Part shown: one piece after another, positions 1 through 15,482 of the stretch | Layout: the number at the start of each line of letters is the position of its first letter | Position numbering within the stretch: the first letter of the stretch is position 1 | DNA from: Desulfolithobacter dissulfuricans | GTDB taxonomy: Bacteria > Desulfobacterota > Desulfobulbia > Desulfobulbales > Desulfobulbaceae | Assembly (NCBI RefSeq): GCF_025998535.1 | Contig: NZ_AP024233.1 | Location: 3,062,001 to 3,126,000 of the forward strand | Direction of reading: 5' to 3' | Length of the DNA: 64,000 nt | Program-made: the position numbers and the translations under genes | Notes under the pieces: model-generated | What the model was told of the DNA's origin: nothing | Database searches by the model: none | What the model saw: the letters and a program-made list of their open reading frames with translations, nothing else

Positions 1-1
1 A

Positions 2-871: not shown

Positions 872-985
872 ACCAGCGATTGCATAAGCCTTCCAGATAC
901 CGCGCTCTACCTGCAAGGCCACCGACTCCCCCAAACCTGCGCCACCAGAAAACCTCGCCCCGGCACCCGGAATGCGGATTTGTTG

Positions 986-1039
986 TTGACAGAAAGAAAA
1001 AAACCGTCTTTAGTAACACCCAATTTTAAAACGTGTTAC
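986..1039 (+). promoter_or_regulatory. nikR promoter with overlapping NikR box (inverted half-sites)
   Basis: A TTGACA element at 986-991 and a poor TTTAGT at 1009-1014 are spaced by 17 bp. The half-sites GTAACAC (1013-1019) and GTGTTAC (1033-1039) form a perfect 7-bp inverted repeat separated by 13 bp and overlap the putative -10 region, as expected for repression. The half-sites match, from memory, those reported for delta-proteobacterial NikR. Autoregulation is inferred. Confidence 0.75.
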
Positions 1040-1112
1040 CTGACCCGGCGACAAAGAGGCACACCCCAGGAGACTGGCAGCAACCCGCCCGTTGCAATAA
1101 CTGTCATCAAAC

Positions 1113-1523
1113 ATGCTGAGACGATTCTCCATATCCCTTGAAGAAAGTCTGCTGGACAAGTTCGATCGCTATATCCAGGCACGCCAGTATGACAACCGCT
1201 CCGAAGCGATTCGGGACCTGATCAGGAAAGCCCTGGTCAAGAAGGAATGGCAGGCGGACAAGCAGGTCATGGGGGTCATAACCCTGGTGTACGATCACCA
1301 CCAGCCGAAGTTGCAGGAAAAGGTGACCGAAGCCCAGCATGATTTCCATCATCATATCGTTTCATCCACCCATGTTCACATGGACCACAACAACTGCATG
1401 GAAGTTATTATTGTCCGTGGCAAGGCAGGAGAGGTGCAGGAACTGGCAGACCGGCTCATCGCCCTGCGCGGGGTGCGGGACGGCAACCTGACCATGAGCA
1501 GCACCGGAAAAGCTCTCCGGTAA
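1113..1523 (+). CDS. nikR: Nickel-responsive regulator NikR
   Basis: This is a 136-residue ribbon-helix-helix repressor that binds DNA when loaded with Ni(II). Residues 1-50 are the DNA-binding ribbon-helix-helix (LRRFSISLEESLLDKFD) and the rest is the ACT-like tetramerisation and metal domain. The four high-affinity nickel ligands known from E. coli NikR are all present at the same numbers: His76, His87, His89 and Cys95. The gene stands between two NikR-type sites (1013-1039 and 1559-1585) and directly precedes the nickel transporter genes, so it is most likely autoregulated and controls the whole locus. Length and start agree with the family. Confidence 0.96.
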   Translation: MLRRFSISLEESLLDKFDRYIQARQYDNRSEAIRDLIRKALVKKEWQADKQVMGVITLVYDHHQPKLQEKVTEAQHDFHHHIVSSTHVHMDHNNCMEVIIVRGKAGEVQELADRLIALRGVRDGNLTMSSTGKALR

Positions 1524-1558
1524 TAAATAATTCCCGGGTAATATTTTTTTGCCCGCCA

Positions 1559-1585
1559 GTAACACGATTTATCCATCTGTAACAC
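1559..1585 (+). promoter_or_regulatory. Putative NikR box upstream of nikM (direct-repeat form)
   Basis: GTAACAC occurs at 1559-1565 and again at 1579-1585, with 13 bp between, exactly the spacing of the nikR site. Here, however, both half-sites point the same way. It ends 12 bp before the nikM start codon, so a bound repressor would overlap the ribosome-binding region or transcription start. Regulation of nikMLKQO by NikR is inferred. Confidence 0.6.
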
Positions 1586-1597
1586 AGGAAACAGGCT

Positions 1598-2197
1598 ATG
1601 CATATTTCAGAAGGTGTTTTATCGGCACCGGTGTTGATCGGCGGCGGGGCCCTGACCGCGGTGGGAACGGCCATTGGCCTGAAAAAGATCGATTATGACC
1701 GGATTATGTCCGTGGCCATTCTGACCTCGGCCTTTTTCGTCGCCTCGCTGATCCACGTGCCCCTGGGGCCGGGTTCCGTCCACCTGGTGCTCAACGGCCT
1801 GCTCGGGGTCATCCTGGGCTGGGCCAGTTTTCCGGCCATCCTGATCGCACTCCTGCTCCAGGCCATCTTTTTCCAGTTCGGCGGCCTGGTGGTACTGGGA
1901 GTCAACACATTCAACATGGCCGCCCCGGCCGTGCTCTGCTTTTATCTGCTGCGGCCCTGGCTGGTCCAGCCAAAACTCCGGCCTCTGGCCGGATTTGCCG
2001 GAGGTTTTCTCTCCATCCTGCTCTCTTCCCTGCTCATGGCCCTGTCACTCGCCCTGAGCGACACCGGCTTCCTGGGCACGGCCAGAATCGTTGTCGCCGC
2101 CCATCTGCCGGTCATGATCATCGAGGGATTCATCACCATGTTCACGGTCTCCTTTCTGGCCAGGGTACAACCCGACATCATGCAACTAAAAATATGA
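1598..2197 (+). CDS. nikM: Nickel ECF transporter substrate-specific membrane component NikM
   Basis: This is a CbiM/NikM-type integral membrane component that binds the metal and, with NikQ and NikO, imports Ni(II) across the inner membrane. It starts with MHISEG; the N-terminal Met-His is the known metal-binding feature of CbiM/NikM and requires that this ATG be the true start. Several hydrophobic segments span the 199 residues, and the conserved stretches HVPLGPGSVHLVLNGLLG and NTFNMA are present. The gene overlaps the next by 4 bp. Nickel rather than cobalt is inferred from the adjacent nikR and its operator. Confidence 0.92.
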   Translation: MHISEGVLSAPVLIGGGALTAVGTAIGLKKIDYDRIMSVAILTSAFFVASLIHVPLGPGSVHLVLNGLLGVILGWASFPAILIALLLQAIFFQFGGLVVLGVNTFNMAAPAVLCFYLLRPWLVQPKLRPLAGFAGGFLSILLSSLLMALSLALSDTGFLGTARIVVAAHLPVMIIEGFITMFTVSFLARVQPDIMQLKI

Positions 2198-2898
2198 AAC
2201 AGGAACAAGCCATGTCACGACCCGGAACAACAGCGCTTCTACTCACGGTGCAACTGGTTATTTTCTGCCTTCTGGCCGGTCCGGCCCTGGCCCACAAGGT
2301 ACGGATATTCGCTTACGCTGAAGGCGACACCATCATCGGCGAGACCGCCTTCAGCGGCGGCCGTGCCCCCAAGGACTCGGAAATCATTGTCAAGGACGCA
2401 GCCTCGGGCAAAATCCTGCTCACCACCCGCACCGACGACCATGGCGAGTTCAGCTTCCCCATCCCTACGGAGGCAAGGCAAAAAGGTCTTGACCTGCTCA
2501 TCGTGGTCAATGTCGGCGAAGGTCACCGTGGTCAGTGGAAACTGACCGCGGACGAGTACCTCGACCAGCCCCCCACCCCATCCCCCTCCCCAGCTACCGG
2601 ACCGACCCCGGCAACAAGCATCCGGGTCGGTCCGGACCCCGCCGCCGCTTTAACGGCAGGGGAGAGAGACGGGACACCGGCCCGGCCCGAGGTGGTAGCC
2701 GTGGATGAAACCATGCTGCGCCGGATGATGGAAGAGACTCTGGACAGAAAACTTGGACCGATCAAGCGGATGCTGGCCGAAAGCCGGGACCAGGGACCCC
2801 GGATACAGGATATCCTGGGCGGCATCGGCTACCTCATCGGCCTGGCAGGATTTCTGGCCTACTTCAAAGCAAAAGCCAACAAAGGAGAGAAAAAATGA
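2194..2898 (+). CDS. nikL: NikL-like accessory component of the nickel transporter
   Basis: This is a 234-residue secreted or anchored protein with a signal peptide ending near PALAHK, a carboxypeptidase-regulatory-like beta domain (about residues 30-120) and a Pro/Ser/Thr-rich linker (PPTPSPSPATGPTP). A charged helix and one C-terminal membrane segment (GGIGYLIGLAGFLAYF) complete it. This is the layout of the NikL component found with NikM, NikK, NikQ and NikO in delta-proteobacterial nickel transporters. Its start overlaps the nikM stop (ATGA); an internal ATG at 2212 with AGGA in front is an alternative start giving a more typical signal peptide. The exact role of NikL in transport is not established. 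Confidence 0.8.
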   Translation: MKQEQAMSRPGTTALLLTVQLVIFCLLAGPALAHKVRIFAYAEGDTIIGETAFSGGRAPKDSEIIVKDAASGKILLTTRTDDHGEFSFPIPTEARQKGLDLLIVVNVGEGHRGQWKLTADEYLDQPPTPSPSPATGPTPATSIRVGPDPAAALTAGERDGTPARPEVVAVDETMLRRMMEETLDRKLGPIKRMLAESRDQGPRIQDILGGIGYLIGLAGFLAYFKAKANKGEKK

Positions 2899-3674
2899 TT
2901 CGGAAAATGCTTTTCGCAGGATGCGTGGCCGGGCTGGTGCTCGGTGCGACCGCCCAGGCCATGGCCCATTTCGGCATGGTGATCCCGTCCGGCAACATCG
3001 TGACCCAGGAGAAAAAATCAGTCGATCTCACCCTGTCCTTTTCCCATCCCTTTGAGCTCATCGGCATGGATATGGACAAACCGGCGAAATTCTACGTGGT
3101 CCGCAACGGCAAAAAGACCGATCTGGTGAACAATCTGCGCCGGACATCGGTCATGGGACATGCGGCCTGGCAGACCACCTACAGGGTGAAACGGCCCGGG
3201 GTCTACCAGTTCGCCATGGAACCGAAACCCTACTGGGAGCCGGCCGAGGACCTCTCTATCATCCATTACACCAAGACCATTGTCGCCGCTTACGGTGCCG
3301 ACGAGGGCTGGGATGAACCCGTGGGCCTGCCGACGGAAATCGTCCCCCTGCTCCGTCCGTTTGGCAACTATGCCGGCAACTCCTTCACCGGCCAGGTCCT
3401 GATGAACGGCAAACCGGTTCCCCATGCCGAGGTTGAGGTGGAGCTTTACAACCGGGACGGTTCCCTGCAAGCCCCCAGTGATTACCACGTGACCCAGGTG
3501 ATCAAGGCCGATAAAAACGGTGTTTTCACCTTCACCTGTCCCCGGGCCGGCTGGTGGGGTTTTGCCGCATTGAGCGAGGCCGACTACACCATCCCCGATC
3601 CCGAGGGCAATGCCAAACCGGTGGAGCTGGGAGCGGTTCTGTGGATCTATCTGGACAGGTATCAGGGTAAATGA
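2895..3674 (+). CDS. nikK: NikK-like periplasmic component (DUF4198 family)
   Basis: This is a 259-residue secreted protein of the DUF4198 family, with a signal peptide (MIRKMLFAGC...AQAMAH). The mature protein would begin with AHFGMVIPSG, a His close to the N-terminus that could bind metal. The body is beta-rich, with a C-terminal carboxypeptidase-regulatory-like part (TGQVLMNGKPVPHAEVEVE). DUF4198 proteins recur beside nickel ECF transporters and are thought to assist uptake in the periplasm. AGGAG lies upstream, the start overlaps the nikL stop by 4 bp, and the stop overlaps nikQ by 4 bp, so nikMLKQ is translationally coupled. Confidence 0.85.
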   Translation: MIRKMLFAGCVAGLVLGATAQAMAHFGMVIPSGNIVTQEKKSVDLTLSFSHPFELIGMDMDKPAKFYVVRNGKKTDLVNNLRRTSVMGHAAWQTTYRVKRPGVYQFAMEPKPYWEPAEDLSIIHYTKTIVAAYGADEGWDEPVGLPTEIVPLLRPFGNYAGNSFTGQVLMNGKPVPHAEVEVELYNRDGSLQAPSDYHVTQVIKADKNGVFTFTCPRAGWWGFAALSEADYTIPDPEGNAKPVELGAVLWIYLDRYQGK

Positions 3675-4420
3675 CCTTCGAGGGATTCAGCCAGGGCGAC
3701 TCGCTGCTGCACCGGACCGATACCAGGGTCAAGCTGGTCTGCGCCCTGGCCCTGACCCTGGTGATCGCTCTTTGCCACAGCTTTGCGACCGCAGCCGGCG
3801 GACTGGTCCTCGGCCTGGTGCTGCTGGGCCTGGCCCGGCTGCCTCTTAGACAGGTTCTGTGGCGGCTGCTGGTGGTCAACAGCTTTATCGGCCTGCTCTG
3901 GCTGTCCCTGCCTCTGACCTATCCCGGCGATCCTCTGACGCTGGGTCCTCTGCACCTGAGCCGGCAGGGACTCGTGCTGGTGAGCCTTATCACGCTTAAG
4001 ACCAACGGGATCATCGTACTGTTCATCTCCCTGCTGGCCACCTCCACGGTGGCGGAACTGGGCCATGGACTGGGACAGCTCCGGGTGCCGGGCAAACTTT
4101 GCCTGCTGCTGCTCTTTTCCTACCGCTATATCTTCGTGATCAGCCAGGAATACCAGCGGCTGCTGCGGGCGGCCCGACTGCGCTGTTTCGAACCCGGCAC
4201 CAACCTGCACACCTACCGGACGTACGGCCACCTGTTCGGCATGACCCTGGTCAAAAGCTGGAACCGGGCCCAGAGGGTAACCCAGGCAATGATGCTGCGA
4301 GGCTTCCGGGGCAGGTTCTACACCCTGGAAGACCGGATCCTCAACCGGCGCGACCTGATTTTCCTCGCATCCATGACCACCATGGTTATTTGTCTTGGCA
4401 TTCTCGAGGGGATCCGTTAG
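3671..4420 (+). CDS. nikQ: Nickel ECF transporter T component NikQ (CbiQ family)
   Basis: This is the transmembrane coupling component that links NikM to the ATPase. The 249-residue protein has multiple hydrophobic segments and the two cytoplasmic Ala-Arg-type coupling motifs of the family: AARLRCF near residue 167 and AMMLRGF near residue 206. These insert into the ATPase grooves. It is coupled to nikK by an ATGA overlap. The ATPase gene follows only after an unusual 296-bp gap that holds a long inverted repeat. Confidence 0.92.
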   Translation: MTFEGFSQGDSLLHRTDTRVKLVCALALTLVIALCHSFATAAGGLVLGLVLLGLARLPLRQVLWRLLVVNSFIGLLWLSLPLTYPGDPLTLGPLHLSRQGLVLVSLITLKTNGIIVLFISLLATSTVAELGHGLGQLRVPGKLCLLLLFSYRYIFVISQEYQRLLRAARLRCFEPGTNLHTYRTYGHLFGMTLVKSWNRAQRVTQAMMLRGFRGRFYTLEDRILNRRDLIFLASMTTMVICLGILEGIR

Positions 4421-4490
4421 GAACGACAGACAGAAAAACAAAAAACAGAAAACAGAAATCTGATTACCATCAATCTCTGGCATTGAAACC

Positions 4491-4594
4491 GGTGTCGGCC
4501 TCACCTGTTGCACAGGACGCCATAAACCCGTCCCTGGGGCTTGACGGTGGCCATCCAGGCCACAGACACCCGTGCAACAGGTGAGGTTGACACC
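4491..4594. repeat. 23-bp inverted repeat in the nikQ-nikO gap
   Basis: The left arm at 4491-4513 and right arm at 4572-4594 are reverse complements at 21 of 23 positions (cores CCTCACCTGTTGCAC and GTGCAACAGGTGAGG), with a 58-nt loop. The whole gap 4421-4716 has no convincing gene. It could be a folded mRNA element or the remnant of a small non-autonomous insertion. No T-run follows, so it is not a standard terminator. Confidence 0.7.
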
Positions 4595-4716
4595 TTCATC
4601 CATCGAAGGCTGAATTTCAGTGGTAATCACAAACAGAAAAGCCGAACCATTCCCGGCCAGCCGGCCGTTCCCAGGCTTCATACACCTCGACAAAAAGAAC
4701 ATGATTCCAACCATCC

Positions 4717-5441
4717 ATGGCCCCGCTGCTTGAACTTGTTGACATATCCTTCAGTTATCCTGGGGCGGACCGGCCGGTCCTGGACCGGATCAATCTCACC
4801 CTGAGCCAGGGACAGCGCGTGGGCCTCATCGGCCCCAACGGCTGCGGTAAGACCTCGCTTTTCCATGTGATCATGGGCCTGCTGCAACCAACGTCCGGGA
4901 AGATACTTTTCAAGGGCAGGCCTGTGACCTCCAGGGAAGATTTCCGCCAGGTCCGGGAAAAGATCGGCCTGCTCTTCCAGGACGCCGACGACCAATTATT
5001 CTCGCCCACGGTTATCGAGGACGTGGCCTTTGGCCCCTGAACCTGGGCGCCAGTCCTGACGAGGCCAGGGAGCGGGCCATGCAGACCCTGGCACGACTGG
5101 GACTGGCCGGTTTTGAAAAACGGATTACCCACCAGCTGTCCGGTGGAGAAAAAAAACTGGTTTCCCTGGCCACCATCCTGGCCATGGAACCGGAGACCCT
5201 GCTCCTCGATGAGCCGACCAATAACCTAGATCCGGAGACCAGGAACCGGCTCATCAAGATCCTCACCGACCTGGAGCCGGGCTATGTGATCATCGCCCAT
5301 GACTGGGATTTTCTGGCGGAAACCTGCAGGGAAATCTATGTCATGGACCAGGGCCGGGTGACCCGGTGTGATACATCATGCCTTCATGAACACCACCACG
5401 CTCACCCCTACGGTGAGCATCCCCACCGGCACGGAGGATGA
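4717..5441 (+). pseudogene. nikO: Nickel ECF transporter ATPase NikO (CbiO family), frameshifted
   Basis: This ABC ATPase energises NikM/NikQ. The first frame (4717-5040) carries Walker A (GPNGCGKTS) and the Q-loop (LLFQDADDQLFSPTV), then stops at TGA after GGC CCC. The second frame resumes at 5037 with LNLGASPDEARERAMQ and carries the signature LSGGEKK, Walker B (TLLLDEPTNNLDP) and the H-loop region (IIAHD). One missing C in the run at 5034-5037 explains the break: with five Cs the protein reads GPLNLGAS and is about 241 residues. The C-terminus is histidine-rich (HEHHHAHPYGEHPHRHGG), fitting a nickel system. The cause may be a sequencing error, a real null mutation or a slip at CCC-TGA. No strong ribosome-binding site precedes the start. 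Confidence 0.88.
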
Positions 5442-5480
5442 AAAAACACCCGGACTGACCAGGGATAATCCGGGACACAA

Positions 5481-5507
5481 GTAACACGATTTTATAATTC
5501 GTGCTAC
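5481..5507 (+). promoter_or_regulatory. NikR box upstream of the TonB receptor operon
   Basis: GTAACAC at 5481-5487 and GTGCTAC at 5501-5507 form an inverted repeat with one mismatch and 13-bp spacing, the same geometry as the nikR site. The position, about 135 bp upstream of the receptor start, suggests an operator. Control by NikR is inferred. Confidence 0.7.
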
Positions 5508-5573
5508 AGCACTCCTCTGCCTGCAAAATGGCAGGAGGAGAAAATAAAGGTGCGATTATTTTTTTGTCAATCA

Positions 5574-5600
5574 GTGTTACGAATTTCAAAAACGTGTGTC
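5574..5600 (+). promoter_or_regulatory. Second, weaker NikR-like site before the TonB receptor
   Basis: GTGTTAC at 5574-5580 is followed after 13 bp by GTGTGTC at 5594-5600, a degenerate half-site in the same orientation. It lies closer to the receptor start codon than the stronger site at 5481. It is the weakest of the set and may be chance. Confidence 0.35.
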
Positions 5601-5642
5601 GGTTCTGTTACTGCCCATACATAACAACAAATGGAGGTACCA

Positions 5643-7649
5643 ATGCAGATGAAGTCAAACGGCAGACTATCAGGCAGGAGGTACACATCCCTGCTGGCCT
5701 CTGTCATTACCCTTCCCCTGAGCACCGTCATGGCCGGAATGAGCACCACGGCCCTGGCTGAACAGGCAGCACCGGAGCCGGCCGCAGTTCTGGAAGAAGT
5801 GGTGGTAACCGCCACCAAAACACCTCACACCCTCAAGGATGTACCGGTGGAAACCCTGGTGGTGGACCAGGAAGATATTGAACAGAGCAATGCCCAGAAT
5901 GTCATGGAACTCCTGAGCACGGTGCCGGGCATTACCACAGCGGTCCATGATGATATCTTCGGCACCTACACCTGGCGGGCCAGCCTGCGGGGACTGAACT
6001 TCAACGACGGATATGCCCTGATTCTCATCGACGGCCAGCGGGTGATGGGGTCCGGCCAGAGCGGCGGAATGGGCGAATACGGAATCGGCCTCAACCAGAT
6101 CCCGGTGGAAATGATCGAACGAATCGAGGTGGTAAAAGGCCCGGGATCCGCTCTGTACGGCAGCGATGCAGTGGCCGGCGTCATCAATATCATCACCAGA
6201 AAGACGCCGGACAGGCCAACCGCCCGGGCCGGTGGAGCCTACGGCTGGTACAAGGTCAAGGAAAGAGTACGAAACGGTATTGTCGAGAAACCATCTGATG
6301 ACGGTGAAAGCAGAAACATTGCCCGGGCCTATGTTTCCTTTGGCGACCATCCCCTGGACAGACTGGGATATCTGATCCATTACGACTACGAAAGCGCGGA
6401 AGACATCGGAGCCGACCCGATCAAGTCCGACCGCCACTCGGTCATGGCCAAGGTAGACCTGGCCGCCAGTAACCGCCTTGACCTGTATTTCAAGGGCGAG
6501 GCAAGCAAGTATGAAAAAATGGACAACCGGGAAGAAGACAGCTTCCGGTTATCGGCAGGTTTTGAGCACCACCCGGCAGACGACCAGGTCCTGGCCGTCA
6601 AGGGGTACACGTACAACTGGGATTTCGTCCACGGGTATCCCGGCTATGCCTATGGCTATAAGCATGGTGCCATCGGCTTTGATCAGATCGAAACGCAGCA
6701 CACCTGGTACACAAACGAGCGCAACACCCTGGTTACCGGCGTCGAAGCCCAGCAACAGACCATTGATTACACTATCGAAAACAGCGATGGTTCCATAATC
6801 ACTGTTCAGGAAGATATCACCACCTGCAGCCTGTACGGCCAGGACGAAATCACCCTCCTGGACGATCTGGTCCTGGTGGCCGGCCTGCGTTACGACGACC
6901 ATTCCACCTTTGGTTCCAGGGTCAATCCCAAGCTGAGCCTGATGTACAGCCTCACCGAAGACACTGTTTTCAGAGCTTCAGCGGGCCAGGCATTCAAGTC
7001 GCCCACCATTCGCCAACTCTATTACAGCGCCCCCTATCGCCACGGAAGCTTCTATGCCCAGTCCAATCCGGACCTGAAGCCGGAAACAGCCACCGGCTAC
7101 TCGGCAAGCCTGGAGCAATGGCTCCTGGGCCGCTCACTCATGCTCAATCTGGGCCTTTTCCGCAACGAGGTGGATGACATGGTGGTCCGTGAAGATACCG
7201 GCACCCTGTATGACGGGTTGCCGCTGCTGGTCTACCGCAACGTGGAAGAGGCGGTCACCCAGGGAGTCGAACTGCTGGCCAGGCTTGAACGTCGGGACTT
7301 CTCCCTGACAGCGACCTACACCTATACGGATTCGGAAAACAGGGATACCGGAAAGGAATTGACCTATGTTCCACGCCACAGTTTCTCCCTGGTTCCGGCC
7401 TATGAATGGAGCCAGTGGAACCTGGGCATAAGCTCCACCCTGACCTGCACGGGCAGACAATACACCGACGCGGACAACACGGAGCAAATCGATGCCCATA
7501 CGGTGGTGGATGCCAAAATGTACCTGAAACTCAGTGATAAGGCCCGCATCAGCCTGGAACTCGACAACATCTTTGATTCGGACAAAGGTGACGAAGGTAA
7601 TTTCCGGACCGGCAGAACCATCCTGGTCAAGCTTGATGCCTCATTCTGA
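5643..7649 (+). CDS. TonB-dependent outer-membrane receptor, probable nickel-chelate uptake
   Basis: This is a 668-residue TonB-dependent receptor. I chose the ATG at 5643 because GGAGG sits at 5633-5637; an upstream in-frame ATG at 5631 overlaps that site. The signal peptide ends near TTALA (residue 39) and the TonB box is EEVVVTATK (about 51-59). The plug domain follows (VPVETLVVDQEDIE, LRGLN, IERIEVVKGPGSALYGSDA, GVINIITRK), then a beta-barrel ending in the terminal phenylalanine of DASF. It is preceded by NikR-type sites and followed by NikK/NikL-like and nicotianamine-synthase-like genes, so the inferred ligand is a nickel chelate. BtuB-like cobalamin uptake is an alternative, but no cobalamin riboswitch is visible. 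Confidence 0.9.
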   Translation: MQMKSNGRLSGRRYTSLLASVITLPLSTVMAGMSTTALAEQAAPEPAAVLEEVVVTATKTPHTLKDVPVETLVVDQEDIEQSNAQNVMELLSTVPGITTAVHDDIFGTYTWRASLRGLNFNDGYALILIDGQRVMGSGQSGGMGEYGIGLNQIPVEMIERIEVVKGPGSALYGSDAVAGVINIITRKTPDRPTARAGGAYGWYKVKERVRNGIVEKPSDDGESRNIARAYVSFGDHPLDRLGYLIHYDYESAEDIGADPIKSDRHSVMAKVDLAASNRLDLYFKGEASKYEKMDNREEDSFRLSAGFEHHPADDQVLAVKGYTYNWDFVHGYPGYAYGYKHGAIGFDQIETQHTWYTNERNTLVTGVEAQQQTIDYTIENSDGSIITVQEDITTCSLYGQDEITLLDDLVLVAGLRYDDHSTFGSRVNPKLSLMYSLTEDTVFRASAGQAFKSPTIRQLYYSAPYRHGSFYAQSNPDLKPETATGYSASLEQWLLGRSLMLNLGLFRNEVDDMVVREDTGTLYDGLPLLVYRNVEEAVTQGVELLARLERRDFSLTATYTYTDSENRDTGKELTYVPRHSFSLVPAYEWSQWNLGISSTLTCTGRQYTDADNTEQIDAHTVVDAKMYLKLSDKARISLELDNIFDSDKGDEGNFRTGRTILVKLDASF

Positions 7650-7773
7650 CCAACGGAACCTGACCATACTTTGACCATATCCAGGGCGGAACCTGAAGAT
7701 ATTGGCCGGGCCGGTGGTCAGACACCGGGATACATTTCCATATCAACGCATTGCAAAAAAAAGGAGCATCTTC

Positions 7774-8601: not shown

Positions 8602-9047
8602 AGCGCTATGGCACCCCTCTTGCGCTGTTGATCCTGGTGTCTCTGGTTGCCACCTCCCCGGTATCCGCCCACACCATCCGCTACACGACCGGTACCGGCG
8701 GAATGGTAGTCACTGCCCTTTTTGACGACGGCCGGCCGGCCAGAGACATGTTCGTGTCCGTCTTTGCGCCCGGACTGGAGGAACGTTTCCAGTCCGGAAA
8801 GACGGACAGGAATGGACGGTTCACCTTTTTTCCTGACAGATCAGGAACCTGGGAAATCCTTGTGTATGACCGTATGGGGCATCGCCTGGAAGTCAAGATG
8901 AAGGTGGACAGCGCACTCTGCCCCGAAGAAGACAAAAAACCAGATCAATCTGATCGCGGTTTGAAGATACTCATGGGGCTGAGTACCATAGCTGTTCTTT
9001 TTTCCGGTTTGCGGCTGGTGAAGAAGAAAAACAAGGCGGATTGCTAG
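8598..9047 (+). CDS. Second NikL-like protein with C-terminal membrane anchor
   Basis: This is a 149-residue protein with a signal peptide (ALLILVSLVATSPVSAH), a single carboxypeptidase-regulatory-like beta domain (about residues 30-105: ALFDDGRPARDMFVSVF, DRNGRFTFFPD), a short charged linker and a C-terminal hydrophobic helix (LKILMGLSTIAVLFSGL) followed by lysines. This is a compact version of NikL at 2194. The start overlaps the stop of the preceding DUF4198 gene by 4 bp, and the pair mirrors nikL/nikK. The function in nickel uptake is inferred from context. Confidence 0.7.
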   Translation: MKRYGTPLALLILVSLVATSPVSAHTIRYTTGTGGMVVTALFDDGRPARDMFVSVFAPGLEERFQSGKTDRNGRFTFFPDRSGTWEILVYDRMGHRLEVKMKVDSALCPEEDKKPDQSDRGLKILMGLSTIAVLFSGLRLVKKKNKADC

Positions 9048-9934
9048 ACTGGTATATGCACTATTTTCCCATAGACCATGATCATGAACTGACAGAGCAC
9101 GAGTTTCTCGGCTGTTGCAAAGACTGCGAGCGCAGTCACTGGTTGGTGAAAAAACATCTCTGTGACTTTTATCAGCGGATTAGCAGCTACAGTCCGGAGG
9201 AACTGCGTTCCCTGCCTCCGGCCGAACTCTACCAGCTCTATCTGGTCCTGGATGATATCGCCCATCTGGACTGCGGCAACCACCTGGCGGAACTGATCCT
9301 GGCCGACCGGGAGATAGAAAAACTGCTCCCGACGATACGGGGTTACTACACCACCTTTTTCGAGCTGCATGAAACCGCCCTGGCCAGGGAAGTGATGACG
9401 GCGGCTGATCCCTGGAAGCCCCTGGAGATCTTTGGCCTCTATCCCCGGTATGAGGCCCTGATCAGAACCCAGGTCGAAACCCTGGACCTGCCCCGTCCCA
9501 ACCGGCTGGCCTTTATCGGTTGCGGACCGGTTCCACTTTCCCTGATCCTCATGCACCGACTTTACGGGATAAGCTCCTTTGGCCTGGAAAGTGACCCGCA
9601 GGCTGTCTCCCTGGCCAACCAATGTCTGGACCGACTGGGCCTTGCGGGCGCAATTGAAATTATCCCGGGCAACGAAGAATCACTTGGAGATCTCGACTGG
9701 GACCTGGTTCTGGTGGCGGCCCTGGCCGAACCCAAGGCCAGAATCTTTACCCACCTGGCCCGGATCATGGCAGACAGGGGAAAACGACCGGTGATCTGCC
9801 GCACCTATTCCGGCCTGCGCGGCCTGCTGCATCCGCCACTGACCGCCAGGGATTACAGTGGATTCCGAGTGCAATATGAGATCCGACCCGGCGGTCGGGT
9901 CAACAACACCCTGCTGCTGCTGGAGATGATGTAA
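9041..9934 (+). CDS. Nicotianamine synthase-like enzyme 1
   Basis: This 297-residue protein resembles nicotianamine synthases, which condense aminocarboxypropyl groups from S-adenosylmethionine into metal chelators. Visible features are the SAM-site motif FIGCGPVPLS (about 158-167, compare the plant motif GSGPLPLT), a preceding helix of the form DPWKPLEIF..YPRYEAL, DLVLVAAL (221-228), a SGLRGLLHP element and a terminal VNNTLLLLE strand, all in the family order. The N-terminus adds a His/Cys-rich stretch (His7, 13, 15, 20; Cys25, 26, 29) not typical of the family. The start is uncertain: TTG at 9041 overlaps the previous stop, and ATG at 9056 is an alternative; neither has a well-placed ribosome-binding site. 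The product is unknown. Confidence 0.8.
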   Translation: MLDWYMHYFPIDHDHELTEHEFLGCCKDCERSHWLVKKHLCDFYQRISSYSPEELRSLPPAELYQLYLVLDDIAHLDCGNHLAELILADREIEKLLPTIRGYYTTFFELHETALAREVMTAADPWKPLEIFGLYPRYEALIRTQVETLDLPRPNRLAFIGCGPVPLSLILMHRLYGISSFGLESDPQAVSLANQCLDRLGLAGAIEIIPGNEESLGDLDWDLVLVAALAEPKARIFTHLARIMADRGKRPVICRTYSGLRGLLHPPLTARDYSGFRVQYEIRPGGRVNNTLLLLEMM

Positions 9935-10743
9935 TGACGGCAGACTTTACCGCAATCCACAGTGAACTCCTGGATATCTACGACGCCATCCGGGACTTGA
10001 GCGATAAGGAGATCCTCCGGGCGCATCCCGGGGCCCTGGATCCCCCTTTTCGCCGTCTGGACCAGCTGGCCGCGATGGAGATCGAAGACGGGGTGCTGGC
10101 AAAGATTCTTGCTTCTCCCGAACTTGAACAGGTGCTCCTGGCCATCAGCCGGTTGCGCAATACGTATGGCCTGCGCCTGGAGATCGAACAGGCCCATGCC
10201 CTGCTCGCTTCATCCGATCCCTGGAAAACACTGCAGGAATTCACCTTCCATGAGAACTACCTGCAGCTGGCAGCCATGGAACAGCAGGGAGCAGGTCTCA
10301 AGTCGGGAGACAGGATCATCTTCCTGGGAAGCGGACCTTTGCCGCTGTCCCTCATTTTCCTCTGTTCCCGGTACGATTTACAGGGTATCGGTATTGAACG
10401 GGAAAACTTTTTTGCTGATCTCTCCCGACAGGTGGTGGCCCACCTCGGCCTGGAGGATCGAATTACCATCAGGGCTGGCAACCATTTTTCTCTGCCCCTA
10501 AAAGAGCAGTTTCAGTTGTTGATGGTGGCCGCCATGGCCCGGCCCAAGGAGGAAATCTTCCGCCACCTGGCCCGCAGCCTGCCGGAAGGAAGCCTGGTTG
10601 CCTTTCGCCTTTACGAGAAGGGACTGCGCCGACTCCTGGACCGCAACGGAGATGTCACGTTGCCACCCGAGTTCACTGTCTATCACCGCATCCGACCCCG
10701 ACCGCCGGTAAACAACACCGTGGTGGTGGTCAGGCGACAATAA
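9934..10743 (+). CDS. Nicotianamine synthase-like enzyme 2
   Basis: This 269-residue paralogue of the preceding gene has a start overlapping its stop (taATGa). It has FLGSGPLPLS (about 130-139), closer to the canonical nicotianamine synthase motif, a DPWKTLQEF..HENYLQL helix before it, LLMVAAMARPKEE, EGSLVAFRLYEKGLRRLL and the terminal VNNTVVVV strand. It lacks the His/Cys-rich N-terminal extension of enzyme 1. Two linked copies suggest either successive condensation steps or a heteromeric enzyme. No opine dehydrogenase of the staphylopine type is seen nearby, so the product is more likely nicotianamine-like than opine-like. That is inference. Confidence 0.8.
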   Translation: MTADFTAIHSELLDIYDAIRDLSDKEILRAHPGALDPPFRRLDQLAAMEIEDGVLAKILASPELEQVLLAISRLRNTYGLRLEIEQAHALLASSDPWKTLQEFTFHENYLQLAAMEQQGAGLKSGDRIIFLGSGPLPLSLIFLCSRYDLQGIGIERENFFADLSRQVVAHLGLEDRITIRAGNHFSLPLKEQFQLLMVAAMARPKEEIFRHLARSLPEGSLVAFRLYEKGLRRLLDRNGDVTLPPEFTVYHRIRPRPPVNNTVVVVRRQ

Positions 10744-10754
10744 AAACTTCGTAA

Positions 10755-11483
10755 TCAAGGACGAACAGCACTCATGACAAAGAAATGAGACCCATAGCCG
10801 GCCGGATAGGGATGGTGCGGAAAATGGTGTTCGTGGCGAACAGGCCGGGTAAAGCCGCAGCCGGTCAGCAGATCCTCGGCCTCGGCAGCCCGCACCCCGC
10901 AAAAATGCGGGAGGTGACGCCTGATCGGCTGATAGGCCAGCTCAAAACGTACCGGAATGGAATTGCGGCCTTTTCTGAGGGCTGAAACAAGTAACCGGGT
11001 GTAATGGGTCACCAGGCCCGAAAAATCCGGACGACGCCATATTCCGTCGGAAACGATGATTCTGCCACCAGGCCTGATGAGCCTGTGCCAGCACCGCAGG
11101 GCCCGTGCCGGTTCTGGCAGGGTCCAGAGCAGGTTGCGGCAGACAATGGCGTCGAAGCTGGCAGGCGTGAAGGGTGGGTCAATGGCATCCGCCGCAAGCA
11201 AGCTAAGCGTCAGCCCCTGCACGGTGACCTTGGTCCCGGCCTGACGCAGCATGCCCGGCGAGATATCCAGGCCAGTAACCCGGTGACCGCCCCTGGCCAG
11301 TCCCAGGGCGATAAAACCGGTGCCGGTACCGACATCTAGAATACGCAGGGGTCCGGTGGCTCCCAGGGCCCGATTATAGACCTGCCACCAGCTTTGCTGC
11401 TGGGCCGAGGAGCCATCAAAGGAAAGGGCCCGCCAGTCCCAGTAATTGCGGATATACCGGGCTGCTGTTGTTGCATTATTCAT
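10755..11483 (-). CDS. SAM-dependent methyltransferase (class I)
   Basis: This is a 242-residue class I methyltransferase. I chose the start at 11483 (MNNATTAARYI) rather than the longer frame to 11585, because the longer version would read through the NikR-type site at 11504-11530. The SAM-binding motif I is LDVGTGTGFIALGLA; motif II ends in TGLDISPGML, followed by DAIVCRNLLWTLPEP and PGGRIIVSDG. It is convergent with the second nicotianamine-synthase-like gene (11-bp gap) and divergent from the FmdE-like gene. The substrate is unknown; methylation of the chelator is possible, and a housekeeping role cannot be excluded. Confidence 0.8.
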   Translation of the reverse strand: MNNATTAARYIRNYWDWRALSFDGSSAQQQSWWQVYNRALGATGPLRILDVGTGTGFIALGLARGGHRVTGLDISPGMLRQAGTKVTVQGLTLSLLAADAIDPPFTPASFDAIVCRNLLWTLPEPARALRCWHRLIRPGGRIIVSDGIWRRPDFSGLVTHYTRLLVSALRKGRNSIPVRFELAYQPIRRHLPHFCGVRAAEAEDLLTGCGFTRPVRHEHHFPHHPYPAGYGSHFFVMSAVRP

Positions 11484-11503
11484 AGGGAGATTCCCGTTAC
11501 CCA

Positions 11504-11530
11504 ATAACACAAAAAAATAATTTGTGTTAA
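11504..11530. promoter_or_regulatory. NikR box in the methyltransferase/FmdE-like divergent promoter
   Basis: ATAACAC at 11504-11510 and GTGTTAA at 11524-11530 are inverted half-sites with 13-bp spacing, matching the nikR site except at the outermost bases. The site sits 21 bp upstream of the methyltransferase start and 54 bp upstream of the FmdE-like start, so it could control both directions, including exbB-exbD-tonB and the radical SAM gene. Confidence 0.65.
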
Positions 11531-11584
11531 ACCCTACTCTTTTTTGCTGATTTTTCAAGTGCTTTCGACATGGAGGTATAGCCA

Positions 11585-12187
11585 ATGCTCATACCCATGG
11601 AATTACACTGTCTGACCCTGCGCAAGGGCTACCTGAGCCCGGAACTCGCCATTGGCTGGCAGATCGGCAAATACGTGGAAGAATTTTTCGATGGGCTGGA
11701 GGAGGTGTGGATTGCCGCGGCCCGGGACGATGACGCCGTCCTGGCCCTCTCGTATCTAACGCGGCAGCACGGCCATCCCGGCCAGGTCATTGTGCCGGAG
11801 ACCGCAAGGCCCTGGGATTTTCTCTTTTATCATCTCACCACCGGCACCCGGCTGGGCTTCACCCTGATCCGGCAGCGCACCCGGTTGCCGCAGAAAATAC
11901 GCGATCTGGAACCAGACCTCTGTGTGGACAACCCGGCGGTGGTGGAAATCTACCAGGCCAGCCTCAACCTGTTGATCAAGTCGGTCCTCTGCCAGCCGGT
12001 GACCAGTTTCTGTCAGGTCCGCCAGGCCCGTTGCCGCCGCCTGCTGTCCAAACACAGCAGTGACCAGCAGACCAGCTGTCACCGTTGCGGCCGCCCGGTT
12101 CCCCTCAGCCAGGCGTGGGATATAGAAGGCGACATCTGCTGTCCTGCATGCACCGGGCTGGAGCCGGTCTGGTACACCTTACATTAG
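11585..12187 (+). CDS. FmdE-like protein with C-terminal zinc-ribbon
   Basis: This 200-residue protein can be laid over the FmdE family (subunit E-like proteins of formylmethanofuran dehydrogenase). The N-terminal part reads GYLSPELAIGWQIG where the family has a histidine/cysteine metal motif of the type HGHxCPGLAIG. The C-terminal part has two Cys pairs (CHRCG and CCPAC) forming a zinc-ribbon as in FmdE. Loss of the usual His and Cys ligands in the first motif suggests a changed or absent metal site there. GGAGGT precedes the ATG well. It is first in a run with exbB, exbD, tonB and a radical SAM gene behind a NikR-type site. The function is unknown. Confidence 0.6.
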   Translation: MLIPMELHCLTLRKGYLSPELAIGWQIGKYVEEFFDGLEEVWIAAARDDDAVLALSYLTRQHGHPGQVIVPETARPWDFLFYHLTTGTRLGFTLIRQRTRLPQKIRDLEPDLCVDNPAVVEIYQASLNLLIKSVLCQPVTSFCQVRQARCRRLLSKHSSDQQTSCHRCGRPVPLSQAWDIEGDICCPACTGLEPVWYTLH

Positions 12188-12248
12188 CTGAAAAGAATTG
12201 CTTTCCAGAACCACGTTTCACCCAAAAAAACAGATGCTTTTAAAAAAC

Positions 12249-12863
12249 ATGTGGGAAATAATACATCATGGCGGCCCCGTGATGTGGCCGCTATTGGCCT
12301 GCTCCGTCATTGTGCTCACGGTGATTCTTGAACGGATTTTGTTCTGGATCAGAATTGAGCGCAGGCGAAACCGGACCCTGATGGACGAAATCCTGCGCCT
12401 GGCGGAAAAGAGGGACTGGGCGCAGATCAGGAAAAAGATCAGGGGCAGCGAGGATTATGTGATCCGGGTGCTTACGGTGGGTATCCTGCATCGGGAATAT
12501 GACATGGGCAAGGCCATGGAGGCTGAGGCCCGGCACATGGAAAAAAAAATGTCACGCTTTATGACCGTACTCGACACCATGATCACCGCGGCCCCCCTCC
12601 TGGGTATCTTCGGCACCGTGCTCGGCATTATCTCCTCTTTCAAGATGCTGGGCACAGGCGGGATTGCCGACCCGAAGCTGGTCACCGGCGGCATTGCCCA
12701 GGCACTGATCACCACCGCTGCCGGGCTTGGCATCTCCATTATCACCGTGTTTCCCTACAATTATTTCAAGAGCCGTATTGAAAACGGTATCTACGTTATG
12801 GAAAAATATGCCACCAGTCTGGAAGTGGTGTATGAAAAAGTACAAATAGACAAACACAAATGA
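12249..12863 (+). CDS. exbB: ExbB-type proton channel subunit (MotA/TolQ/ExbB family)
   Basis: This inner-membrane proton-channel subunit powers TonB-dependent outer-membrane transport. The roughly 204-residue protein starts MWEIIHHGGPVMWPLL, with a first membrane helix (LLACSVIVLTVILERILFW), a cytoplasmic domain, and two further helices with the family motif PLLGIFGTVLGIISSF and a second run GGIAQALITTAAGLGISI. In-frame starts also exist at 12234 and 12198 (TTG); none has a clear ribosome-binding site, and I prefer 12249 by homology. Genes for ExbD and TonB follow, so this is a complete dedicated energising complex, presumably for the receptor at 5643. Confidence 0.88.
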   Translation: MWEIIHHGGPVMWPLLACSVIVLTVILERILFWIRIERRRNRTLMDEILRLAEKRDWAQIRKKIRGSEDYVIRVLTVGILHREYDMGKAMEAEARHMEKKMSRFMTVLDTMITAAPLLGIFGTVLGIISSFKMLGTGGIADPKLVTGGIAQALITTAAGLGISIITVFPYNYFKSRIENGIYVMEKYATSLEVVYEKVQIDKHK

Positions 12864-12937
12864 GGTCCGTCTGCACAGGCGCAGATAACCGAAATTTTAA
12901 TTGGACAATTCGTCACTTCTCTTTTCAGAATATTACC

Positions 12938-13363
12938 ATGAAGGTTCACAGAAAAAGTATTTCGTCGCCACGCATCGAGATGCTGCCGCTTATCGATATC
13001 GTCTTTCTCCTCCTGGTATTTTTCATCTATGCCATGCTCTCCATGGCCGTGCACCATGGCCAGCCAGTGGACCTGCCCGACTCCACGGGTGCGGTCCTGG
13101 AGCCCGATGAGGCCATCGGGATCACCATCCAGGACATGGGGGACACCATCCGTCTCCACGTGAATGAACAACCGGTCAGACTGGAGGAACTGTCCGCGGT
13201 GCTCCGCGAGCAGGCCGGCGAGGAACGGGAGCAGGAGGTGAAGGTCTTTGCCGACAGGACGGTAGCCTACCAGGAGCTCTTCCGGGTCCTGGACCGGATC
13301 CGCCAAGCCGGCCTGAGTCGTATCTCGCTCCAGGCCCGGCCCGAAGAAGTGGCCAGCCCATGA
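12938..13363 (+). CDS. exbD: ExbD-type biopolymer transport protein
   Basis: This is a 141-residue partner of ExbB: a short cytoplasmic N-terminus, one membrane helix (LIDIVFLLLVFFIYAML) with the conserved Asp of the proton path in PLIDIVF, and a periplasmic domain ending in a DRIRQAGL repeat. The ATG at 12938 was chosen because residues encoded upstream do not fit the family. It overlaps tonB by 4 bp. Confidence 0.88.
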   Translation: MKVHRKSISSPRIEMLPLIDIVFLLLVFFIYAMLSMAVHHGQPVDLPDSTGAVLEPDEAIGITIQDMGDTIRLHVNEQPVRLEELSAVLREQAGEEREQEVKVFADRTVAYQELFRVLDRIRQAGLSRISLQARPEEVASP

Positions 13364-14205
13364 GTGAACCATGGCGACTTGCCCTGGCCGCCGTGCTCGC
13401 TCTGGGCCTTCATGGTGCGGTCCTGACCCTGATCCGCATGGACCTCCGACAGACCCTGCCCGCCCCCCTCATGATGGAACGGATCACGGTCTCCCTGGGT
13501 GGCACCGGGGCCAGTGTGCCGACAGAGAAGAAAAAAGAAAGAGAGAAAGGAAAAGAAAAAATTCAGCCGGTTACGGAAGACACCCCGGAGAGGCCGGCGG
13601 CAGAAGAAGAGGTGGCCAGGGAAACAGAGAAGGTCCAGGTGCCAGAGGCCAGATCCGAACCTGAACCCGGGCCGCAGCCCGGAGAACGGACAGAAAAAAA
13701 GGTTGAGCGGCAGAAGACAAAGAGTACCGTAATCACAGAGAGGGAAGAAAAACCGGAATCGCGACAGACAATCCAGCCCCGGCGCACCCGGAAGAGGATG
13801 GTTTCTTCGGTCCGGGAAAAGGCGGTCCGGGAGGATCTCGCCGCCGGGGCCGGACCGGTGACATTCCCCCGGCAGAGCACGGCAGAGGATGCGGCGGATG
13901 ATCAGGCCGCGCCGCAGGCCGCCCTGGTCACGGTCCAGGCGACCCCGCTCTACCGGGTCAATCCACCGCCCAGGTACCCCCGCCTGGCCAGACGCCGGGG
14001 CCTGGAGGGCACGGTTCTCCTCGAGGTCCTGGTCGACCGGAACGGCCGGGTCCGCGAAGTGCGTGTCCAGGCCTCCTCGGGTTACCCGATCCTCGACCGG
14101 GCGGCGTTCAAGGGAGTGCGTAACTGGCGTTTCAGCCCTGGAACCATCGACGGCCAACCTTCGGACATGTGGATCCGGGTACCGGTTCGCTTTCAGCTCA
14201 GGTGA
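13360..14205 (+). CDS. tonB: TonB energy-transducing protein
   Basis: This is a 281-residue TonB with an N-terminal membrane anchor (ALAAVLALGLHGAVLTLI), a long linker very rich in Glu, Lys, Pro and Arg (about residues 50-180) that spans the periplasm, and the C-terminal TonB domain (about 200-281: PPRYPRLARRRGLEGTVLLE, SSGYPILDRAAFKGVRNWRF). Together with ExbB and ExbD it would drive the receptor at 5643. It is coupled to exbD by an ATGA overlap. Confidence 0.9.
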   Translation: MSEPWRLALAAVLALGLHGAVLTLIRMDLRQTLPAPLMMERITVSLGGTGASVPTEKKKEREKGKEKIQPVTEDTPERPAAEEEVARETEKVQVPEARSEPEPGPQPGERTEKKVERQKTKSTVITEREEKPESRQTIQPRRTRKRMVSSVREKAVREDLAAGAGPVTFPRQSTAEDAADDQAAPQAALVTVQATPLYRVNPPPRYPRLARRRGLEGTVLLEVLVDRNGRVREVRVQASSGYPILDRAAFKGVRNWRFSPGTIDGQPSDMWIRVPVRFQLR

Positions 14206-14207
14206 TT

Positions 14208-15482
14208 ATGTTGACCAGTCATGAGCGGCGTTCCGCGACATGGACCATCCGGCCCTGGCGCCGCGGCCTTGCCGTCCACCGCAAACTCAGCTATCCGGCC
14301 CGCTACGGCTGCTACCATGAGCTCATCACCCCGCAGGCCGTCTACCACATGGGCCTGGACGGGTTTCCCCGTTTCCTCCAGGGCACCGGCCCCGACTGGT
14401 CCCATCCCCAGGAATGGCTCAAGCTGACCCGGAACGGTGACTGGGTCTATTACTCCACCCAGGGCTACAGCGATCTCTTCGATCTCACCGGTGAATATTA
14501 TTATCCCCTGCTGCCCTATCCCTCCAATCCCATATTTCAGGGATCTCCCCACACCGTTCCCGGGGTAGCCGACCTCCTGGCCGCCCATGATCAGCATTGC
14601 GCCGAGGCCGCCCGGCTGGCCTCAACCTGTTGCTCCAGGCAGGAGACAGCCGTGCTGCGAAGTTTTTCCCGCTGGACCAGCACGCAAATCCGCCGCCACG
14701 CCGGAGCGCTGCACCGGCTCATCCAGGGTCGCATTCCGGTACTGCCACCGGACTGCCGTCATGTGGATTATGACGTTTTGCCGATCCTGCTCACCGAAGG
14801 GTGTCTGGCCAACTGCGGATTCTGCCGGATCAAGACCGGCACCGAATTCCGGCTTCGATCACAAAGGGAGGTGCGGGATCAGCTTGAAGGAATGAAAAAT
14901 CTGCTGGGGGAAGAAATCGGCAACTACCGGGCGGTCTTTCTTGGCCAGCATGACTGCCTGGCCGCCGGCAGCCGTGCCATTGTCCAGGCGCTTGACCAGA
15001 TCGAGGCCACCCTGGCCCCGGGCACGGTTCATGTCCGGAAACCGGTGGCCTTTCTCTTTGGCTCTACCCGCTCCCTTCTGGCCCTGGACGACGACGATCT
15101 CAGGCGACTCGATCGGTCTCCATTCAGGATAGTTGTCAATATCGGCCTGGAATCCTTTGATCAGGAGACCCTGGAGATCCTGAAAAAACCGGTCCGGGCA
15201 GAAGAGAACTGGCTGGCTCTGCAAAAAATGGTGACCATCAACCGCCGCTATCCGGGAATCAGCATCAGCGGTAACCTGGTCCTGGGCGACGGGCTCGGCA
15301 GCGGTCATATACAGCGAACCCTGGATGTTCTCAGCGAACTGCCCCGGTCCCAGCCCGGCTCCACCCTTTATCTCTCCCCCCTCGCCGGAGCCTGCCGAAC
15401 AAGGGATATCCTTGCAATCCTCCGCCGACTTAAAGACCTCATGCGCCTGGAGATCTATCCCTATCTTATCCAGCAACTCTAA
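14208..15482 (+). CDS. Radical SAM protein of the nickel locus
   Basis: This is a 424-residue radical SAM enzyme. The 4Fe-4S motif CLANCGFC has cysteines at residues 199, 203 and 206 (Cx3Cx2C), preceded by an about 190-residue N-terminal domain I do not recognise. Later barrel motifs include VVNIGLESFDQETLEILKKP, which is typical of radical SAM strands. The ATG at 14208, two bases after the tonB stop with AGGTG overlapping it, is preferred to an upstream in-frame start inside tonB. No SPASM-type cysteine cluster is seen at the C-terminus. As the last gene of the FmdE-like/exbB/exbD/tonB operon it may modify the metal chelator or process the imported complex; both are guesses. Confidence 0.8.
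   Translation: MLTSHERRSATWTIRPWRRGLAVHRKLSYPARYGCYHELITPQAVYHMGLDGFPRFLQGTGPDWSHPQEWLKLTRNGDWVYYSTQGYSDLFDLTGEYYYPLLPYPSNPIFQGSPHTVPGVADLLAAHDQHCAEAARLASTCCSRQETAVLRSFSRWTSTQIRRHAGALHRLIQGRIPVLPPDCRHVDYDVLPILLTEGCLANCGFCRIKTGTEFRLRSQREVRDQLEGMKNLLGEEIGNYRAVFLGQHDCLAAGSRAIVQALDQIEATLAPGTVHVRKPVAFLFGSTRSLLALDDDDLRRLDRSPFRIVVNIGLESFDQETLEILKKPVRAEENWLALQKMVTINRRYPGISISGNLVLGDGLGSGHIQRTLDVLSELPRSQPGSTLYLSPLAGACRTRDILAILRRLKDLMRLEIYPYLIQQL

Follow-up and report, generated by a model that had tools for sequence, protein, structure and literature searches.

Paired nicotianamine-synthase-like genes within a predicted NikR regulon: a candidate nickelophore system in Desulfolithobacter dissulfuricans

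The genome of Desulfolithobacter dissulfuricans, a single contig of 3.6 Mb, carries a nickel-type gene cluster that includes two nicotianamine-synthase (NAS)-like genes. It occupies positions 1013–15482 of the window, the 64,000-nucleotide stretch analysed here (genome positions 3062001–3126000); coordinates below are those of the window unless the genome or another stretch is named. Genes were identified from lists of open reading frames (ORFs) and from Pfam and NCBIfam profile searches, which agree with the content given by an earlier sequence-only reading: nikR, nikM-L-K-Q-O, a TonB-dependent receptor (TBDT), two NAS-like genes, a methyltransferase (MT), a radical SAM protein and an exbB-exbD-tonB set. 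On the + strand, the nickel-responsive repressor gene nikR (1113–1523; NikR_C, 121.8 bits, 1.4e-35; RHH_1) is followed by genes for an energy-coupling factor (ECF) importer: nikM, the S-component (1598–2197; CbiM, 198 bits, 1.8e-58), nikL (2194–2898; NF058648, 179 bits, cut-off 100), nikK (2895–3674; DUF4198, PF10670, 216 bits, 8e-64), nikQ (3671–4420; CbiQ, 113 bits, 2e-32) and the ATPase gene nikO (4717–5441). The M, L, K and Q genes are intact. In nikO, a frameshift of one base within the run of C at 5034–5037 (frames read) gives two pieces, at 4717–5040 and 5079–5441, both matched by ABC_tran. The frameshift may be an assembly error or genuine, and if genuine would deprive the ECF importer of its ATPase.

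The receptor operon, also on the + strand, begins with the TBDT gene (5631–7649; PF00593 barrel, 213 bits, 2e-62; Plug, 87 bits, 1e-24), the product of which has the colicin I receptor as its best solved relative (149 bits). It continues with a second nikK-like gene (7774–8601; DUF4198, PF10670, 5e-38), a second, short nikL-like gene (8598–9047; NF058648, 51.9 bits, under the cut-off of 100), NAS1 (9056–9934, with ATG 9056 taken as the start) and NAS2 (9934–10743). The sequence-only reading had the receptor and NAS genes of this operon and missed the nikK- and nikL-like genes, which are present too in two related genomes (G162 and G090). A class I methyltransferase gene on the − strand (10755–11483, likely start ATG 11483; Methyltransf_11, 85 bits, 6e-24 when read from 11585) diverges from a + strand series that encodes a degenerate FmdE-like protein (11585–12187), ExbB (12198–12863; PF01618, 105 bits, 3e-30), ExbD (12860–13363; PF02472, 93 bits, 2e-26) and TonB (13360–14205; PF03544 (TonB_C), 91 bits, 7e-26). 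The radical SAM gene (14208–15482; Radical_SAM, 40 bits) stands at the end of the cluster.

NAS1 and NAS2 are the only PF03059 matches in the source genome, with scores of 78 bits (1e-21, read from 9041) and 117 bits (1e-33) against a curated cut-off of 27.1, and NAS2 belongs to a second subfamily. Both are homologous to the thermonicotianamine synthase MtNAS (PDB 3fpe, 3o31), NAS1 at 6e-38 (3fpe) and NAS2 at 6e-28. A passage of PMC10248798 describes E77 and Y106 as essential in Arabidopsis NAS1; by the numbering matched in the present analysis these residues should correspond to Glu81 and Tyr107 of MtNAS, which all 50 aligned rows retain, MtNAS counted among them and broken NAS copies excluded. 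The CntL equivalog model scores the two proteins at 16.0 and 21.8 bits, far under its cut-off of 350. NAS1 begins with a His/Cys segment (9056–9130; MH..P..H.H...GCCKDC), possibly a metal site; NAS1 of Desulfobacterota-type genomes has CC[KR][DN]C at the N terminus and that of a Methanoculleus contig (L030) has CCLDC, and no such motif occurs in the archaeal pairs L106–L108.

The NAS tree separates a NAS1 side, which contains MtNAS, from a NAS2 side, which contains an archaeal single-NAS type (stretches L116–L121), with 100/100 support, and the two members of a pair, bacterial or archaeal, fall on opposite sides. NAS1 proteins of bacteria and of L106–L108 form a single clade (99/99). NAS2 proteins of bacterial pairs also form a single clade (99/97), with L115 within, and those of L106–L108 form a separate clade (100/100), the placement of which is weakly supported (81/82). 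This topology indicates two old NAS subfamilies that are found as adjacent pairs in both domains, and strict co-inheritance of NAS1 and NAS2 appears likely. The window resembles MtNAS in core homology and in the catalytic Glu and Tyr, and NAS1 groups with MtNAS; it differs in having a subfamily pair within a predicted nickel regulon.

The main text of Rodionov et al. 2004 (PMC545781) gives GTGTTAC-N13/14-GTAACAC as the delta-proteobacterial NikR consensus and reports that the half-sites are reversed, GTAACAC-N13-GTGTTAC, in Desulfotalea psychrophila, a member of the same order, where they lie upstream of nikMLKQO and an unexplained gene pair. Scored against this inverted motif, the window has putative NikR-type sites, in the reversed form, ahead of four transcription units (coordinates on the + strand). 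The site at 1013–1039 (GTAACAC-N13-GTGTTAC; 14/14, 0 mismatches), which ends 73 bp before nikR, is the sole perfect window match to the strict published inverted consensus. Another, at 5481–5507 (GTAACAC-N13-GTGCTAC; 1 mismatch), is separated by 123 bp from the receptor gene downstream, and a third, at 11504–11530 (ATAACAC-N13-GTGTTAA; 2 mismatches), lies between the divergent methyltransferase and FmdE-like genes. The fourth site named by the sequence-only reading, at 1559–1585, 12 bp before nikM, is a direct repeat (GTAACAC-N13-GTAACAC), unlike the inverted form of the other three, and has 3 mismatches. Positions 1–16000 contain six matches with at most 3 mismatches compared with 0.65 expected from 20 dinucleotide shuffles; the six count the nikM place twice and include a further 3-mismatch match at 1538. 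The locus has both a NikR_C protein and a conserved motif upstream of the predicted regulon members, the nikM site being the most divergent.

A degenerate pattern derived from the window sites themselves, RTAACAC-N13-GTGYTAM, has four perfect places genome-wide, three in the locus and one at genome position 1737708. Between the end of the latter and the likely ATG of an SBP5 gene (L140:3911-5452) lie 175 bp; the product of this gene has as its best solved relatives a ‘nickel-binding periplasmic protein’ (135 bits), which we take to be Escherichia coli NikA, and the ‘nickel ABC transporter’ protein of 5yh5/5yh8/5yhe (119 bits), presumably Staphylococcus aureus CntA. No permease adjoins this gene, which encodes an orphan NikA/CntA-like binding protein, and a complete SBP5-permease-permease-ATPase-ATPase operon is found at a separate place in the genome. 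The SBP5 gene is followed by ArsR-, permease- and ArsC-like genes, the permease being cut by a transposase-like ORF (by eye), and a reverse-transcriptase-like ORF lies nearby. Two further genomic places match with 1 mismatch, neither with a known nickel tie; one of them (L142:3402-3428, genome 2183901-2183927), upstream of a cytochrome, iron-sulfur and membrane-protein gene set recognized by eye, may be another NikR target or a chance match.

The NAS pair recurs beyond the source genome. A PF03059 search of 193 genomes of the source order gave matches in 8, of which 7 were over the cut-off; six have the pair (G000, the source genome, and G143, G146, G148, G152 and G162), G090 has a NAS1 truncated by a contig end and G050 has only a below-cut-off match. 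When 395 genomes of the phylum were searched with a NAS1 profile, G260, G455, G546, G415 and G462 were added, and 33 weak matches (E 7.8e-7 to 8.0e-4) were taken as generic methyltransferases. In 9 of these 11 sampled Desulfobacterota-type genomes that carry the pair, the stretch also contains a gene for a metal or chelate importer; in G415 this is an ABC ATPase alone, resembling the FecCD partner of G546. A TonB receptor is in the NAS stretch in 6 of the 11 (G000, G143, G148, G152, G162 and G462).

Gene orders vary among these genomes. G162 has nikR, a nikM–nikO remnant, the receptor, nikK2, nikL2, NAS1, NAS2, the methyltransferase, the FmdE-like gene, a CooS-kind CO dehydrogenase gene (L017:12388-14295, between the FmdE-like gene and exbB), exbB, exbD and tonB. 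NikR-type sites stand before its nikR, before the nikM remnant, where the direct repeat GTAATAC-N13-GTAACAC (L017:5268-5294) resembles the window nikM site, and, with 1 mismatch, at the corresponding methyltransferase/FmdE-like place (L017:11817-11843). At L017:5307-5846 the nikM start runs into the nikO remnant, and L, K and Q are missing; either the ECF part is decaying while NAS, receptor and exb/tonB genes remain, or this metagenome-assembled genome (MAG) is misassembled. G143 has divergent TBDT and NAS1-NAS2 genes with a perfect NikR-type site between them, an Opp-type importer, exb/tonB genes and an FmdE-like gene preceded by a 1-mismatch site; a methyltransferase remnant lies at its NAS locus, and an intact copy is in a separate SBP5-permease-permease-ATPase operon. 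FecCD, its ATPase and FmdE (Pfam) accompany the pair in G546, an ATPase and FmdE (by similarity) in G415, and a TBDT and an FmdE-domain protein in G462.

Cable bacteria form a further group. G146, a Candidatus Electrothrix gigas MAG from the same family as the source, has nikM-Q-O-NAS1-NAS2 and, on a separate contig, TBDT-MT-SBP5-ABC; G148 and G152, of the genus of G146, have nikO-NAS1-NAS2-TBDT-MT-SBP5-ABC-ABC, and in G152 a gene for a NicO-domain protein lies upstream of nikO. The main text of Hiralal et al. 2024 (PMC11247825) describes a cable-bacterial Nik/Opp/Dpp operon with an ‘undefined TBDT’ and proposes it for nickel import. It has in common with the present loci a TBDT and an Opp-type importer, and we infer that the operon of G148 and G152 is the same one; in these two genomes it comes after nikO-NAS1-NAS2 and includes the methyltransferase, and the word nicotianamine has 0 occurrences in that main text. 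The same text gives the Nik/Opp/Dpp operon as absent in E. gigas. In the MAG labelled E. gigas, contig C110 of G146 carries the TBDT-MT-SBP5-ABC operon at L158:570-6194, which would reflect either a strain difference or binning.

NAS genes also adjoin nickel/cobalt importers in archaea. The 3.7-kb contig L030 of a Methanoculleus MAG carries NAS2 together with NAS1 and the methyltransferase, both of which are split between two reading frames; its NAS2 sits on a long branch beside NAS2 of the source order, and such a short MAG contig could be mis-binned. In the archaeal phylum of that genome, PF03059 is found in 27 of 246 genomes, 24 over the cut-off. Our sample is 20 stretches from 17 of the 27 (G807, a strong match, and nine weak or partial matches were left out), and many of the sampled archaea are presumably methanogens. 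A Ni/Co ECF-type gene lies beside NAS in half of the stretches (10/20: L106–L110, L112 and L122–L125; in L110 an ATPase only, the contig ending there), and the methyltransferase occurs in six (L106, L107, L109, L115, L124 and L125). Three to four NAS-family genes or pieces surround one NikKMLQO operon in L109 (G664) and L112 (G640); L109 also has an extra nikK/nikL-like pair between NAS copies and L112 a FecCD and a Peripla_BP_2 protein.

We compared 17 archaeal NAS promoters, those outside the L116–L121 type, with 200 shuffles each. Seven, from six genomes, have matches with 2 mismatches (six promoters) or 3 (one), equalled by 0–1 of 200 shuffles; the form is GTGTTAC-N13-GTSACAT in six promoters and a 3-mismatch variant in one, and six of the seven lie at −142. 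The L106 promoter has a 3-mismatch match equalled by 6/200 shuffles, the other nine have 4–6 mismatches and the six L116–L121 promoters 5–6. Because the whole leader is conserved (52–70% outside the half-sites) and a TATA-like box, judged by eye, is some 100 bp away, this NikR-like motif is suggestive only. A non-coding leader of about 140 bp is conserved before NAS in L109, L112, L123, L124, L125 and L110, with GTGTTAC identical in the six copies compared.

We consider it moderately probable that the locus specifies a NikR-repressed, opine-free, nicotianamine-type nickelophore system that operates under nickel starvation. NAS homology with the catalytic Glu and Tyr, the operator-like sites, importer linkage, the tree and CooS within the G162 cluster all point to this reading; a second NAS where an opine dehydrogenase would be expected, together with a NikR switch, favours it. 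When nickel is scarce, NikR would leave its operators and the regulon would come on in four units: the ECF importer NikMLKQO; the TonB receptor with the extra NikK/NikL-like proteins and the putative aminobutanoyl transferases NAS1 and NAS2; the methyltransferase and, divergently, the FmdE-like protein with ExbB-ExbD-TonB; and, elsewhere in the genome, the NikA/CntA-like binding protein. NAS1 and NAS2 would probably extend an amino-acid starter by successive 2-aminobutyrate units derived from S-adenosylmethionine, and the product would be a nicotianamine-like chelator made with no opine dehydrogenase step. Once secreted, the chelator would bind nickel and the complex would be recovered through the TonB receptor; in the periplasm nickel would be handed to NikKL-NikMQO, and in relatives the complex would pass to an Opp/NikA-type or FecCD-type ABC importer. 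The sequence-only reading had proposed NikR control, a NAS-type pathway and TonB uptake, and all three are supported on sequence evidence, NikR control by the inverted motif published for Desulfotalea and by the fourth genomic site at the NikA/CntA-like protein. It had also suggested a comparison of gene neighbourhoods, in which NAS recurs beside nickel/cobalt or chelate importers in other genera and in archaea; the refuting outcome that it named, co-occurrence in this genome alone, does not hold.

That the same scheme, a NikR-controlled nickelophore made by paired NAS subfamilies with no opine dehydrogenase, is common to Desulfobacterota, including cable bacteria, and to archaea of a methanogen-bearing phylum is a more tentative proposal, with somewhat less than an even chance of being right; it would link chelator synthesis to groups with an unusually high need for nickel. 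Methanogenesis, CO dehydrogenase and hydrogenases need nickel, and the conductive fibres of cable bacteria contain it. If true, a nickel-controlled opine-free system coupled to an ECF importer would reveal a means by which the anaerobes of sulfidic sediment compete for nickel; it would also supply a candidate substrate for the unexplained cable-bacterial receptor/Opp operon and make the nickel supply of these bacteria testable. The two NAS subfamilies are ready enzymes for in vitro reconstitution.

The nearest known systems are those for the opine metallophores staphylopine, pseudopaline and yersinopine, in which CntL-CntM genes lie with CntO or CntA-F. The known bacterial NAS-type metallophores are mainly for zinc with an opine as the end product, their loci are under Zur control, and the usual layout places NAS with a TonB receptor and an SBP5/Opp or FecCD importer. 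The present loci share with them a NAS-family enzyme that adjoins a TonB receptor and/or an SBP5-Opp importer. They differ in that the window locus has tandem NAS subfamilies, an ECF NikMLKQO partner, NikR-type sites instead of Zur control, and no linked opine dehydrogenase or exporter; as the sequence-only reading stated, neither is found among the annotated gene products of the locus (Pfam/NCBIfam), unlike in the staphylopine and pseudopaline systems. The CntM profile PF10100 matched 0 of 14 genomes and likewise 0 control genomes, hence we make no claim of absence. FrpB4 and FecA3 of Helicobacter are NikR-controlled TonB nickel receptors, to which the receptor here is comparable; we know of no chelator synthesis genes in that system. 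PMC11247825 names both. The regulon in PMC545781 has nikR, nikMLKQO and the inverted motif GTAACAC-N13-GTGTTAC in common with the window, which adds NAS1-NAS2, the methyltransferase, the receptor and, elsewhere in the genome, the NikA/CntA-like protein; nicotianamine has 0 occurrences in the main text of that paper. Among titles and abstract beginnings of open-access literature no such NAS-NikR system is reported, and an earlier mention of NAS near ECF genes is possible. NAS, NikR, TonB and nickel terms co-occur in one paper, a plant–bacteria review, NAS is mentioned in passing as a metal-uptake gene in two oral-methanogen papers, and neither ‘metallophore’ nor ‘nickelophore’ is used in a survey of methanogen Nik genes. 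Laffont and Arnoux 2020 reportedly surveys cntL neighbourhoods.

Several observations weigh against the nickelophore reading. Across the 64-kb window, matches with at most 3 mismatches number 12 compared with 9.7 expected, a count reached by 28 of 100 shuffles, and genome-wide matches with at most 2 mismatches number 15 forward and 19 reverse compared with 19 and 20 in a backwards control. Neither of these overall counts shows enrichment; the signal is carried by the best matches and by where they stand. One of the 1-mismatch genomic places falls inside a coding region, in a gene resembling phosphotransferase system enzyme I (by eye). Around the NAS genes of the cable-bacterial stretches L018, L020 and L022 there is no NikR-type site; the 1-mismatch match of L020, at 2418-2444, is far from the operon. 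Five bacterial stretches from outside the order hold the pair, and L062 alone among them has a motif match, with 3 mismatches. No importer was recognized beside the pair in G455 and G260; archaeal NAS adjoins NikKMLQO, and no neighbouring TonB receptor was found there; nikO is frameshifted in the present assembly; and no dedicated exporter is found among the annotated genes of the locus, an unlinked exporter elsewhere being possible.

The lack of a linked exporter and the archaeal position of NAS beside NikKMLQO make an intracellular ligand the strongest rival. The nicotianamine-like product would stay in the cytoplasm or periplasm, as nicotianamine acts inside plant cells, and would buffer or deliver nickel, the receptor importing nickel complexes made by others. 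G146, in which nikM-Q-O-NAS1-NAS2 lies on a different contig from the TBDT operon, fits this arrangement; the receptor shares a stretch with the pair in 6 of 11 genomes, and chelate-type ABC importer genes recur beside the pair in the layout of metallophore loci, which speaks against it, and we judge it unlikely while giving it more credit than the other rivals. It is improbable that the chelator is meant for cobalt or for several metals rather than for nickel, and that NikR was simply a handy control. Members of this ECF family carry nickel or cobalt (NF058648 is named nickel/cobalt), Pfam confirms CbiQ of L106 and CbiM of L107, L124 has a CbiA/GATase_3 protein of the cobyrinate-amidase kind, and nicotianamine and opine metallophores bind several metals; against this, all four sites in the window are similar to the NikR motif, NikR_C is clear and the nickel enzyme CooS lies within the G162 locus. 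Chance adjacency of a nickel-uptake operon and unrelated biosynthetic genes, to which the behaviour of the radical SAM gene and the 2 of 11 bacterial pairs with no recognized importer alongside could be credited, is scarcely credible given that the linkage recurs in several genera and in archaea with differing gene orders, that 0 of 6 single-NAS stretches (L116–L121) show an ECF gene, and that NAS is preceded by NikR-type sites in G143 and, with less certainty, in archaea.

The methyltransferase probably belongs to the NAS system, judging from its linkage to NAS stretches and importers. Among 18 genomes searched with it, 13 matched, and the top match was in the NAS stretch in 9 (G000, G162, G148, G152, G750, G790, G664, G812 and G802), with an SBP5 importer in G143 and G146, and elsewhere in G696 and G546. 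In cable-bacterial genomes it sits with TBDT-SBP5-Opp, in G143 with SBP5-permease-permease-ATPase, and it is missing (0/6) from the single-NAS type L116–L121. The enzyme may finish the chelator or act on the imported complex.

For the 11585–12187 protein, labelled FmdE-like by the sequence-only reading, BLAST gives only a weak match (E 2e-5) to an FmdE that Pfam confirms in another genome; neither Pfam (PF02663) nor NCBIfam matches the protein itself, and HGHxCPG is replaced by KGYLSPE. The protein is 63% identical in G143 and 77% in G162, and its structure model has a mean pLDDT of 45 and is unusable. The radical SAM gene, which the same reading had included in the pathway, was rejected, because its homologues do not travel with NAS: of 116 genomes from the order, 10 have the gene, the source included, and the other nine have no PF03059 match in the 193-genome search (whether the remaining NAS genomes fall within the 116 was not established). 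In the nine short stretches around these homologues nothing matches nik, exb or NAS, there is one weak methyltransferase match (L148), and no radical SAM homologue was seen in the NAS stretches of order relatives.

No relative was found with NAS2 as the query against viral contigs or with NAS1 against plasmids; a NAS1 scan of genome contigs, the two peptide patterns of which are narrow, returned 5 loci. A hairpin-like repeat seen by eye in the nikQ–nikO gap (4440–4640) is similar to one at L140:6110-6250, near the ars genes, and looks like a dispersed repeat element.

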